Source of the DNA: a virus
Reading direction: 5' to 3' (one strand)
Length of the DNA stretch: 38,039 nt
IMG/VR virus record: IMGVR_UViG_3300048592_000298
Location: 1-38,039 of that record
In this document: piece by piece, positions 29,420-37,963 of the stretch
How positions within the stretch are numbered: position 1 is the stretch's first letter
Layout: every line of letters begins with the position of its first letter
Made by a program: the position numbers and the translations under genes
Notes under the pieces: generated by a model
Database searches by the model: none
What the model was told of the DNA's origin: nothing
What the model saw: only the letters and a program-made list of their open reading frames with translations

Positions 29420-29565
29420 CGGATCGCCTCGGGAGTGATGCGCAGGGCGTCGCGCTCGCGCTCTATCTCGGCGACACGACTGCGGAGGCTGGCGCACGCA
29501 TCCTCGCGCACCTCGCTCGACTGCCATGCTCCGCACCATGCGCAGACGACGTGCCATGTAGTCAC
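29416..29565 (-). CDS. Zinc-knuckle protein A (49 aa), paralog of 32729-32875
   Basis: A 49-aa protein starting [20 protein letters not shown], followed by a Cys and a coiled-coil-like tail (RSRVAEIERERDAL). GTG 29565 overlaps the methyltransferase stop (GTGA). The first ~21 codons are almost identical to zinc protein B, but the second half is different and lacks B's second CxxC. It thus has an incomplete zinc site and may be a recombinant or decayed copy. Confidence 0.6.
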   Translation of the reverse strand: MTTWHVVCAWCGAWQSSEVREDACASLRSRVAEIERERDALRITPEAIR

Positions 29566-30356
29566 GATGCGGCCTCGTCGTCGCGCGGCATCTCGATCTG
29601 TTCCGGCGCCGGCGCTCGCGTCGGCTCGAAGCGCAGTACCGATTGCGCGAGCCGCTTCGCAGCCATCTCGCAGTAGCGCTCCTCGATCTCGATCCCGATG
29701 GCGCGGCGTCCGAGCAGCTTCGCGGCGACGAGCGTTGTGCCGACCCCCATGAAAGGATCAAGCACCGTCTCGCCTTCCTTGCACGCCGAGACAAGCCATC
29801 CGAGGAGGTCGACGGGCTTCTGCGCGATATGCAGCTTGTCGTCGCCACGAGGACTCGGGCATCGCACGACACCGGGCAGATATGCCGCTAGGTCGTTCGG
29901 CCCGTTCGTTCCCCACACGATGTACTCGGATTGAGCGCAGAGCCGCGCCTGAGGGCGAGCGGCTTCCGTCTTGTCCCACACGCCGATGCCGCGCCACACC
30001 CACCCACCAGCCTGCATCGCATCTGTGGTCACCGGCAACTGCCGCCAGTCTGTGAATAGCGCACAGAAGGCACCTGTCTGCGCCGCCTTGTGCGCTGCCG
30101 CAAGCCAGAGCGAGCACCACGCGAGGTAAGAACGGGCGTCGCGGTTGTCGCCGCTGAATTCCTGCCTCGCAACAATAGTGCCGGTCTGCACATACTTCGC
30201 CACGGTAGACCGCACGCGATCCCCGCGAAACTGGCCGCCGCTAGAGTACGGCGGATCGGTAATGACCGCCCCGAGGTCGCTCAACTCATGAAGAACGTCG
30301 AAGCAGTTCCCGTGGTAAATCGTGATTCCGTCCTCGTCGTAGTAGGGCGTAGTCAC
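29562..30356 (-). CDS. DNA adenine/cytosine-N4 methyltransferase A (beta class)
   Basis: A 264-aa protein with the beta-class order: motif IV ITDPPYSSGG (residues 32-41) near the N-terminus and the SAM-binding motif VLDPFMGVGTTLVAA near the C-terminus, then [14 protein letters not shown]. The start [12 protein letters not shown] is the shared signature of the three copies in this window. DPPY favours N6-adenine methylation. No restriction endonuclease gene is visible, so it looks like an orphan enzyme, perhaps protecting phage DNA from host restriction. GTG 30356 overlaps the upstream stop (GTGA) and aligns with paralog B; GTG 30368 is longer. Confidence 0.85.
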   Translation of the reverse strand: MTTPYYDEDGITIYHGNCFDVLHELSDLGAVITDPPYSSGGQFRGDRVRSTVAKYVQTGTIVARQEFSGDNRDARSYLAWCSLWLAAAHKAAQTGAFCALFTDWRQLPVTTDAMQAGGWVWRGIGVWDKTEAARPQARLCAQSEYIVWGTNGPNDLAAYLPGVVRCPSPRGDDKLHIAQKPVDLLGWLVSACKEGETVLDPFMGVGTTLVAAKLLGRRAIGIEIEERYCEMAAKRLAQSVLRFEPTRAPAPEQIEMPRDDEAAS

Positions 30357-30667
30357 AGCGCGAGCCACAGCGCGTCCTCGGCCGCAGCGTCTCGCTCCGC
30401 GGCGATCTCGACGAGCGTCGGGCCGTCCGTGACCGGCACGGATGACGGTCCATCGTAGGGCGCGTGGTTGAGTAGCTCCGCGACGAACCCGCCTTCGCTG
30501 TTGGCGTGGTAGCGGAGCCAGTCTGCGACCGCGCGCACCTTTCCGCGCAGCCGCGCCAGCTCGTTGAGGATCGCATCCGCTTCGTCATCGGCGAGAGCAT
30601 TCTTTGCGCCGCCGATGATCTGGCGCAGCGACTCCTCGGCGTCTGCGAGAATGCCTACCTCGGCCAC
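30353..30667 (-). CDS. Hypothetical early protein
   Basis: 104 aa from GTG 30667, with GGAGG seven bases upstream (GTG 30670 is next to it). Helical and acidic (ADAEESLRQIIGGAKNALADDE, ILNELARLRGKVRAVADWLRYH), with a short strand region (SSVPVTDGPTLVEIAAERD). No recognised domain. Overlaps the methyltransferase A start. Confidence 0.55.
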   Translation of the reverse strand: MAEVGILADAEESLRQIIGGAKNALADDEADAILNELARLRGKVRAVADWLRYHANSEGGFVAELLNHAPYDGPSSVPVTDGPTLVEIAAERDAAAEDALWLAL

Positions 30668-32360: not shown

Positions 32361-32735
32361 TCATCGTCGGAGCCACGCGGCGACGAGGTGCGCCGCGAGG
32401 TAGAGCGCGGAGAGAGCCATGGAGCGCCGGATCCACCGCTCACCAATCCCGATCTCGGCGCGCAACGGATCGATGCCGCGGCGTCGATACGCGCGCTCCA
32501 CTCGCCACCACGGTGCGCGCGGAGGCGGCGAGACGATGGTTCGCCGTCCCGGGACTGGCGGTAGAGCGAACCCGTTCCGCTCGCTCGCCAGAACCCCCCG
32601 ATCCGGTCCCTCGTGCCGTAGGACGCGTCCCGGGACGGCTGACACCTCCTTGACCCGGCGCATGTCCGGGTCACAAAGCCTGATCGTGACGGGCTCGCTC
32701 GCCTCGATGGCTCGGATCTCATCCGACGTCAGCAC
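32361..32735 (-). CDS. Hypothetical early protein with hydrophobic end
   Basis: 124 aa from GTG 32735, which has a strong SD (AAGGAGGAT). Starts LTSDEIRAIEASEPVTIRL; the middle is basic with aromatic residues (GRRTIVSPPPRAPWWRVERAYRR); the last 20 residues (MALSALYLAAHLVAAWL) may be a membrane segment. Overlaps the zinc protein gene by seven bases. Not recognised. Confidence 0.55.
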   Translation of the reverse strand: MLTSDEIRAIEASEPVTIRLCDPDMRRVKEVSAVPGRVLRHEGPDRGVLASERNGFALPPVPGRRTIVSPPPRAPWWRVERAYRRRGIDPLRAEIGIGERWIRRSMALSALYLAAHLVAAWLRR

Positions 32736-32875
32736 GCATCCTCCTTCGCGGCGTACCGCGCGAGCAGACACTCGGCGCAAATCGTGTGCGACGTCGCCTC
32801 GGACTCGGAGCCCTCGCGCACCTCGCTCGACTGCCATGCTCCGCACCATGCGCAGACGACGTGCCATGTGGTCAC
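32729..32875 (-). CDS. Zinc-ribbon protein B (48 aa), paralog of 29416-29565
   Basis: A 48-aa protein with a complete zinc site: HVVCAWCGAW and HTICAECLLARY, two C-x2-C knuckles 21 residues apart, then a Cys end. The GTG 32875 overlaps the methyltransferase B stop exactly as in copy A. Codons 1-21 and the flanking methyltransferase end are nearly identical between the two copies. It is probably the intact form. Function unknown, but linked to a methyltransferase twice. Confidence 0.65.
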   Translation of the reverse strand: MTTWHVVCAWCGAWQSSEVREGSESEATSHTICAECLLARYAAKEDAC

Positions 32876-33705
32876 GATGCGGCCTCGTCGTCGCGCAGCA
32901 TCTCGATCTGTTCCGGCTCGGGCTGCGCGGGGGACTCGAAGCGTAGGACGGACTGTGCGAGCCGCCTCGCGGCCATCTCGCAGTAGCGCTCCTCGATCTC
33001 GATCCCGATGGCGCGGCGTCCGAGCAGCTTCGCGGCTACGAGCGTCGCCCCGGCGCCCATCACCGGATCAAGCACCAGATCGCCCGCGTCGGAATGGAGC
33101 CTGATGAAGTGCATGGGCAACTCTACCGGCTTTGGTGTCGGGTGGTGGTCGGCTGATGGCTTGATCCCGGACAAGCGCAGAACATTCGAGGTTCGATTTC
33201 CGCCGTTCCACTTTGTCGCGCCTCCTGGAATCTGCGCGACGAGCACGAACTCGTAGTTTCGGCGGTAGTGCCACCCCATGCCGAGTCCGCCCTTGTCCCA
33301 CACGACGGCATGCTTGAATCCGATCGCCTCATCCATCCAGAGCGCCCACCGCGCGAACTGCGGATCGGGCCCGCCGCCGCCGCAGCAGCAGCAGCAGCAG
33401 CAGCCTGCGCGCACCAATAGACGGCGACATTCCGAGAAGATGAATCTAACTAGATCGTTCGCCTCGGGGCCGTCGTTCGCGATTGGACGCGCTTCGCCAG
33501 GCTCCGAGATTCCTCTCCGCACGAGCCCGAGAGCTTCTTCCCATCTGTGCGCTAGGTCGCCGTTGTTGTTGTTGTTGTGTCCGTAGGGGGGATCCATGAA
33601 TATGAAATCGACTGTGCCGGACGGGATGCGGGGAAGGACAGCACGGCAGTCACCGTGGTAGATCGTGATCCCGTCCTCGTCGTAGTAGGGCGTAGGCGCG
33701 GTCAC
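32872..33705 (-). CDS. DNA methyltransferase B (beta class) with trinucleotide runs
   Basis: A 277-aa paralog of methyltransferase A. Order: [13 protein letters not shown], catalytic motif IV MDPPYG (38-41 = DPPY), then H and five Asn (44-48), a variable centre with seven Cys (102-108) and four Gly (109-112), [11 protein letters not shown], and the SAM motif [14 protein letters not shown] with [11 protein letters not shown]. The Asn and Cys runs come from pure (AAC)5 and (TGC)7 tracts on the coding strand. Reading frame is intact, so the enzyme may be active, with lengths that vary by slippage. GTG 33705 overlaps the pentapeptide gene's stop. Confidence 0.85.
33382..33402 (-). repeat. (TGC)7 microsatellite encoding seven Cys
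   Basis: Seven identical codons in a row on the minus strand (residues 102-108 of methyltransferase B), followed by GGC/GGG Gly codons. Purity of the tract points to recent slipped-strand expansion. Changes in number keep the frame. Confidence 0.9.
33562..33576 (-). repeat. (AAC)5 microsatellite encoding five Asn beside the catalytic motif
   Basis: Five AAC codons, residues 44-48, three residues after DPPY in methyltransferase B. The paralog A has SSGGQ here. Together with the Cys run 54 residues on, it is a second independent trinucleotide tract in one gene. Confidence 0.9.
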
Positions 33706-34301
33706 GGCTGCGCCTCGCAGCCCGTCCAGCCGTGCGCACGGCAGATGGATAGGATCGCGTCGAGGCCGGCGAGCATCAGATCTCCGTGCTCGCGGCGATC
33801 GTCGCAGCCGGGACCCCAATGCGCGCGCGCCTCCGCGAGCGTGAACCATCGGCAGCCGCACGCGATGCGCGGGCCGTCGGCCCAGGCGACGGCCAACATC
33901 GTCCATCCATCGATCGGCCCCAGTCGCTGTAGGGTCCGGCCGAGGTCCGCGCCGCGAAGGTCCGCGCCGCTAAGGTCCGCGTCGCGAAGGTCCGCGCCGC
34001 TAAGGTCCGCGTCGCGAAGGTACGCGCCGCTAAGGTCCGCGTCGCGAAGGTCCGCGCCGCGAAGGTACGCGCCGCGAAGGTCCGCGTCGCGAAGGTCCGC
34101 GCCGCTAAGGTCCGCGCCGCGAAGGTCCGCGTCGCTAAGGTCCGCGTCGCGAAGGTCCGCGCGCCTGCCGTCAGTCTCCGATAGGCGCCACGCGCGATGC
34201 AGCGCGAGAACCGCGGTCCGCGTAGCGGCGTTGAGAGTGACGCCGCTAAACGGGCGCTCTACGGGACGGCCAGCGTAGGGGTCGGTGGCGGGAAGGCTCA
34301 T
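33702..34301 (-). CDS. Pentapeptide-repeat protein
   Basis: A 199-aa protein with 15 consecutive pentapeptides, ADLxx or AYLxx, at residues 48-122, which fold as a right-handed square beta-helix. After it comes a Trp-rich C-terminal domain ([21 protein letters not shown], then [12 protein letters not shown]). Known pentapeptide proteins can mimic DNA and bind gyrase (Qnr, MfpA), but many have no known role. ATG 34301 overlaps the stop of a 41-aa gene; without one copy of a 23-bp repeat the two would be one frame. The start lacks a good SD, so translation is probably coupled. Confidence 0.8.
33936..34160 (-). repeat. 15 tandem 15-bp units (pentapeptide coding)
   Basis: Near-identical 15-bp units, with a few alternate bases (for example CGCGAAGG or CGCTAAGG), encode [15 protein letters not shown] and AYLRx. 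High DNA identity between units, beyond what the protein needs, indicates recent expansion or gene conversion. This is not a CRISPR: there are no spacers. Confidence 0.9.
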
Positions 34302-34423
34302 CGCGCAGCAGCACTCGGCGCAGTCGCGCAGCAGCACTCGGCGCAGTCGCGCAGCGGGAAGGCCAGCTCCGCGCGGACGCGGGCGCCGGGATGCGCGGCG
34401 GTGGGACGAGACGGGGCGGTCAT
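34298..34423 (-). CDS. 41-aa ORF, probable frame-shifted N-terminus of the pentapeptide gene
   Basis: Starts [20 protein letters not shown], then [10 protein letters not shown] with two Cys groups, and ends ATAPSAAAR. The last nine residues are read from the second copy of a 23-bp tandem repeat in a shifted frame. Removing one copy would read [10 protein letters not shown] straight into MSLPATDP of the pentapeptide protein. ATG 34423 overlaps the preceding stop (ATGA), and its own stop overlaps ATG 34301. Confidence 0.6.
34301..34346. repeat. Perfect 23-bp tandem duplication
   Basis: 34301-34323 and 34324-34346 are identical; a partial third unit of eight bases follows (34347-34354). Since 23 is not a multiple of 3, gain or loss of one copy shifts the reading frame between the 41-aa ORF and the pentapeptide gene. 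Confidence 0.95.
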
Positions 34424-34710
34424 CGGGCGTCGTCCGTCTGCGCGATCCAGAGCGCCCCCATCGCGTCCGTGATCTCGTTGCCGAGGCTGGCGCCGCCCGG
34501 GCTGCGGCGCTGGGGCAGCGTGGAAACGTCGCGCGCCGTCGCGCACTCGATGGACGCCGCCGCGAAGTTGCCCGCCTGTGCGTGCGTGATCGCGCGCTGG
34601 AGCGCCTCCCGCCCGGGACCGTCTCCTACGGTCTCCCGGGCGAATGAGATCGCAGCAACGGCGTGACGGGCGTGCTTCGCGGCGGGCTGGGTGGCGGGAG
34701 CGGGCTTCAT
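34420..34710 (-). CDS. First gene of the leftward early operon
   Basis: A 96-aa protein, helical ([44 protein letters not shown]), with a short Ser/Pro-rich part and an acidic end ([18 protein letters not shown]). SD GGAGG before ATG 34710. It is the first gene leftwards of the control region, a place for regulatory or host-takeover proteins, but no domain is recognised. Confidence 0.6.
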
Positions 34711-34739
34711 CGGGTCCTCCTGGGTGGACGATGGATCGA

Positions 34740-34790
34740 AGCCTACGCCTACTATTTCGGCGGCGCAAGATTTATTTCGTCTCGCCGAAA
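34740..34790. promoter_or_regulatory. Leftward promoter candidate and operator-like dyads
   Basis: Within the 141-bp divergent region: TTTCGGCG (34755-34762) is the inverted partner of CGCCGAAA (34783-34790), and TTTCG (34775-34779) pairs with CGAAA (34786-34790) in the same stretch, giving repeated half-sites. On the minus strand TTGCGC (34768-34763), 17 bp, TAGGCT (34745-34740) is a weak promoter candidate overlapping the left half-site. The dyads are likely binding sites of the repressor encoded at 34852. Confidence 0.4.
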
Positions 34791-34815
34791 AAAAACTTGA
34801 GCCCTGCGATCTCGC

Positions 34816-34844
34816 TTGACTCGCCGATCGCGGGCCCGTAATAG
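34816..34844 (+). promoter_or_regulatory. Promoter of the XRE repressor gene
   Basis: TTGACT (34816-34821), 17-bp spacer, TAATAG (34839-34844). The -35 is near consensus, the -10 is weak. Transcription would begin about at or just before ATG 34852, so the message would be nearly leaderless, as for lambda cI from its maintenance promoter. Confidence 0.5.
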
Positions 34845-34851
34845 TAGGGGC

Positions 34852-35112
34852 ATGGACCTTGCCACTTTTCGCGTCCGCGTAGGCGTGCAGACAGCGACGC
34901 AACTGGCCGAAATCACTGGGATTTCGCTTGCATCCATCTCCAGAATCGAGGCCGGGATTTCGCGTTGCTCCGTCGATTCGCTGGAAGTGCTGCGGCGCTG
35001 GATCGCGGAGGCGGGCGTGCGGGCCGGGATCCCGGCCTCGGAGTGGCCGGACCGGGACACCTTCGCCCGGCGGCCGGCGGCGCCGGCCGAGGGCTCCGAG
35101 GCGCGCGCGTGA
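34852..35112 (+). CDS. XRE-family HTH repressor (Cro/CI-like)
   Basis: An 86-aa protein with a typical lambda-repressor HTH: FRVRVGVQTATQLAEITGISL, then ASISRIEAGISRCSVDSLEVLRRWI. QLAEITGIS-LASISRIEAG is the recognition unit. There is no C-terminal peptidase-like domain, so it is closer to a short repressor or Cro than to full CI. It faces the leftward early operon across the control region and is the first gene rightwards, so it probably governs both directions. Confidence 0.85.
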   Translation: MDLATFRVRVGVQTATQLAEITGISLASISRIEAGISRCSVDSLEVLRRWIAEAGVRAGIPASEWPDRDTFARRPAAPAEGSEARA

Positions 35113-35183
35113 GGCGCCGCCGGCCCGTGATGGGCAAGAGCAAGGCGAAGCCGGCACCGAAGCCCGCGAAGAAGGGCAAGTAG
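35109..35183 (+). CDS. 24-aa Lys-rich basic peptide
   Basis: Starts GTG 35109 overlapping the repressor stop (GTGA). Sequence is RRRRP followed by a KAKPAPKPAKKGK-type tail like that of histone H1, so it may bind nucleic acid. It may also be only a short coupled leader. Very small, so confidence is limited. Confidence 0.4.
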   Translation: MRRRRPVMGKSKAKPAPKPAKKGK

Positions 35184-35238
35184 TACGCGGCCCGGCCTGC
35201 TCTCGGGGCCTGGCCATCGCTCACCGGGGGGTGGGAGT

Positions 35239-35850: not shown

Positions 35851-36049
35851 GTGGCTACGCCGATGAAGCCCTACTACGAGCAGGACGACGTCACGATCTA
35901 TCCCGACATCGCCGACGCCTCCATTGACTTCGTGTTCACCGATCCCCCTACGGGCAATCGCCGTCAAGCGGCTCGCGCAGTCGGTACTGCCGCTCAACCG
36001 CGATCCCGAGCGTGAGCCTGAGCAAGCGTCGCTGCTGGGTGAATCGTGA
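35851..36049 (+). pseudogene. Collapsed third DNA methyltransferase (internal deletion)
   Basis: From GTG 35851 the frame reads MKPYYEQDDVTIYPDIADAS, then VFTDPP, which is the start and motif IV of the paralogs A and B. Immediately after the DPP codons the sequence jumps to the paralogs' C-terminus: in the next frame AIAVKRLAQSVLPLNRDPE and EPEQASLLGES to the TGA at 36047-36049. The first frame stops at 36013-36015. About 200 codons, including the target-recognition and SAM regions, are missing, so no methyltransferase can be made. It is on the plus strand, opposite to the other two. Confidence 0.85.
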
Positions 36050-37050: not shown

Positions 37051-37094
37051 CCACAACGGGGGCTGACGGGGAGAGGTGGCGACGAAGCACCGTA

Positions 37095-37104
37095 GGGGGG
37101 GGGG
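37095..37104. repeat. Poly-G tract of 10 before the replication gene
   Basis: Ten G in a row, ending one base before GTG 37106. It is either an extended SD-like element of that start, or, if GTG 37076 is used, part of codons 7-10. Homopolymers of this length slip readily, so length changes could alter expression. The bases GTGGCGAC occur on both sides, at 37076 and 37106. Confidence 0.85.
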
Positions 37105-37105
37105 T

Positions 37106-37963
37106 GTGGCGACACCGAGAAAACACTGGTTCCGGGTGCTCGATTCGATCCTACACGAGACATGGCCCGTCGAGCTAAAAGGGGTTGCCGTGAACCTCAT
37201 GGCGTACCTAAACACGCGCTGGGCGCGAGAGGGTCTGACCGCCGAGCAAGCCTGCTCGGCGCGGCTCTCGCCGGCAGCCTGTATGCTGGTGACCGGCAGT
37301 CAACGCTTGGTCAAGGCGCGGTCTACTCTCGGTAGACTCGCGGTTGTGACACAGTTGACCGTCGCCTACGACGGCGCAGACACGGTGATTAGTTGGGATA
37401 AGTTCGCTGAAATACAAGGATTCACTACCCCGAAAACGCCCGAGAGTCGCCCGAGAGTCGCCCCCTCCGCATCCGCATCCGCATCCGCCTCCGCATCCGC
37501 ATTAACAGACACAGACACAGAGGCGGCTGCGCCGCGTGTGTGTCACGGCACGGGAGCGCAGCATCCGGAGCCGGAGCGGAGGGTGCCGGCGAGCTCGCGG
37601 CCGCCGCCCGCGCCTCGCGCGATCGAGCAGGCTGCGTTGCTGCGCGATGCGGTGCGACGTCGCTGGCCGCACGCCGCGGTGCCGCAGTCGCTCGTCGCAT
37701 GGGCTCGCGAGATCGAGCGCGTGCCGGCGCCGCCCGAGCAGGTCGTCGAGCTGATCACGTGGCTCGTCGATCCGCGGCGCGACACCGAGCGCTACGTTCC
37801 CGAGGTGCGCTGCGCGCGGAGTTTCCGCGCCAAGTGGAACGCGCTGGTCGCGGCTCGTGCGCGTAGCGAGCGCGGGGCGCCGAAGAGCGCAGCGCAAGAG
37901 CGCTACGAACGCACCGTCGCGGCGGCGGAAGGGGCCCTCGAGCTATTGAGGCAATCGCAGTGA
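37106..37963 (+). CDS. Replication initiator / helicase-loader-like protein
   Basis: 285 aa from GTG 37106 (GTG 37076 would add 10 residues). The N-terminal domain, HWFRVLDSILHETWPVELKG and following helices to EIQGFT, is a winged helix of the phage O / DnaD-like kind. Then comes a low-complexity linker (Ser-Ala repeats, TDTDTE) encoded by iteron-like DNA, and a C-terminal helical part (AIEQAALLRDAVRRRWPHA, VVELITWLVDPRRD) probably contacting helicase. It would bind the origin inside its own gene and load the helicase. Its stop overlaps the next gene (GTGA). Confidence 0.7.
   Translation: MATPRKHWFRVLDSILHETWPVELKGVAVNLMAYLNTRWAREGLTAEQACSARLSPAACMLVTGSQRLVKARSTLGRLAVVTQLTVAYDGADTVISWDKFAEIQGFTTPKTPESRPRVAPSASASASASASALTDTDTEAAAPRVCHGTGAQHPEPERRVPASSRPPPAPRAIEQAALLRDAVRRRWPHAAVPQSLVAWAREIERVPAPPEQVVELITWLVDPRRDTERYVPEVRCARSFRAKWNALVAARARSERGAPKSAAQERYERTVAAAEGALELLRQSQ
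37440..37522. repeat. Iteron-like repeats: candidate replication origin
   Basis: Three nested direct-repeat sets inside the initiator gene: CCGAGAGTCGC twice (37440-37461), TCCGCA six times with one variant TCCGCC (37466-37501), and ACAGAC twice plus ACAGAG (37505-37522). As in lambda, where the origin lies in gene O, such iterons in the initiator gene are the likely origin. The encoded stretch is low-complexity linker, so the DNA and not the protein is probably under selection. Confidence 0.65.

Follow-up and report, generated by a model that had tools for sequence, protein, structure and literature searches.

A 23-bp tandem duplication at the start of a phage pentapeptide-repeat gene and its likely origin as a tolerated slippage event

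An exact tandem duplication lying across the junction of two reading frames raises a simple question: does it serve as a switch, or is it the trace of a mutation that was tolerated? Such a duplication, of 23 bp, is present in IMGVR_UViG_3300048592_000298, a metagenomic virus record from an uncultured phage. The 38,039 nt of this record were analysed as a whole and are referred to here as the window. The duplication is found where a putative 41-aa ORF meets the gene of a pentapeptide-repeat protein. It had been proposed in the initial annotation that loss or gain of one copy could toggle this protein between a fused and a split form.

The repeat and the frames that it divides

The two full copies of the repeat lie on the minus strand at 34301-34323 and 34324-34346, and are identical to each other. 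The coordinates and the identity agree with the initial annotation, and so does the count of two full copies, to which a partial third copy of 9 bp at 34347-34355 has to be added. This partial copy, which was recognised by Tandem Repeats Finder and in the sequence itself, reads TCGCGCAGC on the plus strand. Tandem Repeats Finder thus reports one array at 34301-34355, with 2.4 copies and a 100% match. The final minus-strand base of the copy nearest to the pentapeptide gene is the A of that gene's ATG.

Repeats of this kind are infrequent. As a control for chance, third-order Markov sequences were generated at 20 times the window size, and these 20 window-sized sequences held, in total, two exact tandem repeats with a period of at least 11. 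Other phage DNA, 680 kb in total, contained three exact tandem duplications with a period that is at least 15 and not a multiple of three. As chance hardly produces such a repeat, it is regarded as a true and fairly rare slippage duplication. A second exact duplication of non-triplet length (11 bp, 2.45 copies) is present in the window at 37437-37463; the 23-bp event is therefore not unique to the pentapeptide gene, and a general mutational habit is suggested. The 11-bp repeat is followed directly by a 6-bp repeat of 6.2 copies, and the two together occupy 37437-37502 within a 295-aa ORF (37076-37963). Another 10-bp repeat, GCGGGAAGGC, which flanks the 23-bp array at 34288 and 34354, was set aside because pairs of 10-mers no more than 100 bp apart are common in the window. 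The RNA structure across the junction was also found to be nothing special (z = -0.12).

The putative 41-aa ORF (34298..34423, minus strand) has an ATGA overlap at each of its ends, with a 96-aa gene at its start and with the pentapeptide ORF at its end. At this end, which reads CGCGATGAGC, its stop, TGA at 34300-34298, overlaps the pentapeptide ATG at 34301-34299. A length of 23 bp leaves a remainder of two on division by three, so that any change in copy number shifts the reading frame, and a single copy would join the first 33 codons of the ORF in frame to MSLPATDP and the pentapeptides. The prediction of a fusion with one copy, and of a stop at ATGA with two, was confirmed by reading the frames. 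The ORF had also been said to end in CCCA; these residues close only the 33 that can be joined, and the true end is different, as the last eight residues come from the second copy read in a shifted frame. The pentapeptide frame itself is open upstream to 34625 and offers a second possible start, GTG at 34337. A programmed -1 frameshift from the 41-aa ORF into the pentapeptide frame, which lies at -1 relative to it, was considered and set aside, since no slippery heptamer was seen by eye.

Overlapping genes and coupled translation

The junction belongs to a series of tightly packed genes on the minus strand. The first of the set is the 96-aa gene (34420..34708; MKPAPATQ...TDDAR), with a strong GGAGGA ribosome-binding site and a coding score of +24 bits. 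It shares ATGA at 34420-34423 with the 41-aa ORF, which in turn shares ATGA at 34298-34301 with the pentapeptide gene. Downstream, the pentapeptide stop overlaps the GTG start of a DNA methyltransferase (32872..33705) through GTGA at 33702-33705, and the stop of the methyltransferase overlaps the GTG start of a 48-aa ORF (32729..32875) through GTGA at 32872-32875. Four consecutive co-directional junctions thus carry the 4-nt NTGA overlap by which coupled gene pairs are recognised.

No GGAG-type Shine-Dalgarno sequence precedes ATG 34301 in CGAGTGCTGCTGCGCG. Such a sequence is present at the 96-aa gene and at several homologous pentapeptide genes (loci L087, L088, L096, L119 and L125), and the start at 34301 is therefore likely to depend on coupling. 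Termination-reinitiation at ATGA-type overlaps is experimentally established (PMC6728339), and translation from 34301 most likely relies on it. The earlier statement that the pentapeptide start must re-initiate in the two-copy state was correct. With four NTGA overlaps in a row, re-initiation should yield the pentapeptide protein in either copy state. The conserved protein is expected to be made by read-through from one copy and by re-initiation from two.

The methyltransferase of this set is one of two on the minus strand of the window (29562-30368 and 32872-33705), which have different middles and near-identical ends. At the DNA level they share 88% identity across the final 207 bp and 92% across 50 bp at the beginning; judging from these sequences, domain swapping by recombination is likely. 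On the plus strand, at 35851-36049, a methyltransferase start (MKPYYEQDDVTIY...FTDPP, a tblastn match) is followed by a C-terminal-like piece (KRLAQSVL..EPEQ, recognised by eye) with the middle missing, and this appears to be the remnant of a third methyltransferase. The enzyme at 32872-33705 also contains a (GCA)7.7 run at 33382-33404, which encodes seven cysteines in a row, and a run of five asparagines (33268-33420 region); both are unusual for the enzyme family.

The pentapeptide-repeat protein and its homologues

The pentapeptide gene (33702..34301, minus strand) encodes 199 aa from ATG 34301, or 211 aa from GTG 34337. The protein consists of an N-terminal helix, about 15 pentapeptides and a C-terminal cap domain (GCRWF..EARAHW), and the DNA of the pentapeptide array (33943..34162, minus strand) is built of a 15-bp unit repeated 14.7 times with 88% matches. 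With its A(D/N)LXX repeats it belongs to Pfam family PF00805 (E 2.4e-35; 120 bits against a gathering cut-off of 20.2), and it matches PHROG 7713. A scan for the C-terminal cap, built on an alignment of closer homologues, recovered 50 viral and 5 bacterial loci.

In the aligned homologues with an LxxHxxW helix, the protein starts about 10-15 residues ahead of this motif. The window protein, even from ATG 34301, has about 22 residues more at its N-terminus than the homologues. The 41-aa part was absent from every homologue ORF examined, and a natural fusion of this part with pentapeptides, which was sought among them on the suggestion of the initial annotation, was found in none; homologues lacking this part were one of two outcomes that the annotation had named as speaking against its switch. 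Through an AlphaFold model (mean pLDDT 78, pTM 0.51), a helix is predicted at residues 25-44, followed by the solenoid and then by an alpha/beta cap, and residues 1-24 are of low confidence. As the N-terminus is not conserved and is modelled with low confidence, and the predicted fold begins at residue 25, adding or losing it would be unlikely to affect the fold.

A Foldseek search of the model against the PDB returned the pentapeptide solenoids Nostoc alr5209, NP275 and MfpA (MfpA E 2e-4), with the match limited to the solenoid part. No solved structure in the PDB was found to be related to the cap domain by sequence. The cap (IIAGCRYF..EARxHWxxTRGGTxLGDES; 33705-33850 in the window) is common to PF00805 proteins and to phage proteins with a YdcK-type beta-solenoid (PF18836). 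One cap is thus carried on two types of solenoid (L087, L096, L106, L108, L127 and L130), and no Pfam model matches it.

It had also been suggested that the pentapeptide array is prone to change in length, and this is borne out in other phages. Two viral contigs that are 99.85% identical over 3.3 kb, L034 (2859-3716) and L053 (5001-5753), carry pentapeptide arrays whose lengths differ by 35 residues net without a shift of frame, a difference that has nothing to do with the 23-bp repeat.

Origin of the duplication and comparison with known systems

How did the junction arise? It is fairly likely that it goes back to a tolerated slippage duplication, by which the beginning of a coupled cistron became a short coupling ORF. 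The one-copy precursor would have contained TCGCGCAGC twice, as direct repeats 14 nt apart. Two short direct repeats lying close together are the usual substrate of replication slippage. A single slippage (template-switch) event between these 9-bp repeats would generate the 23-bp tandem copy, and TCGCGCAGC probably primed it. The direction, from one copy to two, is read from the repeat itself because no one-copy relative was found. In the precursor, the cistron probably started at ATG 34423, in the ATGA overlap with the 96-aa gene, and read through into the pentapeptides. The duplication would then have shifted the frame, and the Met-Ser pair (ATG AGC) at the end of the repeat would have provided TGA as a stop and ATG as a restart. 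In place of one cistron there would now be two, a coupling ORF of 41 codons and, behind it, the pentapeptide ORF. Having finished the 96-aa gene, ribosomes would go on to read the short ORF, terminate, and re-initiate at ATG 34301. Because the part lost is an N-terminal extension that is not conserved, the change would have been tolerated, and may well have been neutral.

It is because of the overlaps that we lean towards translation of the short ORF, even though the coding evidence is weak and its two measures disagree. By GC at the codon positions, the 33 upstream codons resemble coding sequence, with a contrast of 0.18 against means of 0.18 for in-frame and -0.04 for off-frame windows, a value that 17% of off-frame windows also reach. 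By codon usage, the same codons score -4.2 bits, a value exceeded by 99% of true in-frame windows and reached by 30% of off-frame windows. The N-terminus of the pentapeptide protein also scores low (-4.8 bits), which marks the region as atypical.

Alternatively, the two-ORF arrangement could be established and under selection. The 41-aa ORF would then be a genuine small gene with a coupling or leader role, and the repeat would be incidental to its origin. That the ORF both starts and ends in ATGA fits well with the uniform 4-nt overlaps of the operon. A selected small gene is nevertheless unlikely. The 41-aa peptide has no homologue in Pfam, PHROGs or the scanned collections, the GC3 bias is lost when the second copy is read in its frame (GC123 0.75/1.0/0.38), and the copies have kept 100% identity, as would be expected of a recent event.

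The proposal of the initial annotation was a reversible phase-variation switch, in which slippage between one and two (or three) copies would convert the protein between a fused form of 232 aa and a split one, under selection. Its frame arithmetic is right, and comparable cases are known. In the pneumococcal capsule genes cap3A, cap8E and tts, phase variation arises from tandem duplications inside the reading frame (Waite et al. 2001, 2003, as cited in PMC4022640), promoter tandem repeats in M. tuberculosis offer another example (PMC12817950), and tandem repeats of a greater length, 101 bp, undergo deletion at high frequency in E. coli (PMC8378479). Given these precedents, copy loss by slippage is possible in principle, and at this locus it may be called plausible.

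As a switch, however, the arrangement is quite unlikely. The family homologues examined do not share the N-terminal part, and the conserved protein would be obtainable from ATG 34301 in both states, so that neither is an evident OFF. The two-state claim is unsupported. The reversion expected from PMC4022640 for short insertions (9 bp or less) is at most about 1e-5, and the like duplication at 37437-37463 speaks for a general mutational habit. No one-copy or three-copy form was found in any of the collections searched, which also gave no close relative of the locus. Positions 33000-35200 had no relative in the phage collection by blastn, and the non-repeat parts had no match there by tblastn. 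Scans of viral contigs with the cap domain and the 96-aa gene yielded no close relative, a 21-base piece of the repeat had no match in these contigs, and the one-copy N-terminus had none among bacterial genome contigs. Four contigs with capsids 83-90% identical (IMGVR 3300005673, 3300005676, 3300005683 and 3300033061), which are fragments of 4-7 kb, also gave no match to the locus.

It was also considered that the 41-aa frame is untranslated and that the pentapeptide protein is made from ATG 34301 or GTG 34337, with the duplication lying in a spacer. This reading, to which the low codon score lends some weight, is improbable, since it would open a gap of 118 nt among genes that elsewhere in the operon overlap by 4 nt, and the start would have no Shine-Dalgarno sequence to rely on. 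More doubtful still is a copy-number rheostat. Here, one copy would give an extended protein at full translation and two copies a shorter protein at the level of re-initiation, and a population would hold both forms of a putative DNA-mimic-like protein. If true, slippage phase variation would act on a phage accessory protein via translational coupling. An assembly or sequencing artefact is scarcely credible: the source is a metagenomic record that stands without a second genome for comparison, but the array is just 55 bp, below ordinary short-read length, and perfectly copied.

The tolerated duplication can finally be set beside systems that are better known. With the pneumococcal capsule genes (cited in PMC4022640), it shares a short exact tandem duplication in or at an ORF, which shifts the frame and is in principle reversible by slippage. 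There, reversion and phenotype were measured, whereas here no variant form was found, and a re-initiation start would keep the conserved protein. The protein itself resembles the phage pentapeptide proteins with a GCRxF..EARxHW cap (PHROG 7713-like, PF00805) in its HxxW helix, solenoid and cap, and differs from them in its roughly 22 extra N-terminal residues and in the disputed upstream part. With MfpA and Qnr, pentapeptide proteins that mimic DNA and target gyrase, the modelled structure appears to share the pentapeptide solenoid; the cap domain sets it apart, and the structural matches are limited to the solenoid.

The nearest comparison for the junction is the coupling of genes through 4-nt overlaps (PMC6728339, PMC10666635). 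The same ATGA stop/start overlap is present here, as part of four successive junctions of the kind, while the upstream ORF differs in being just 41 codons long, without a homologue, and in ending within duplicated sequence. An operon of this build may thus absorb a frame-shifting duplication, as ATGA supplies the stop and the restart together.
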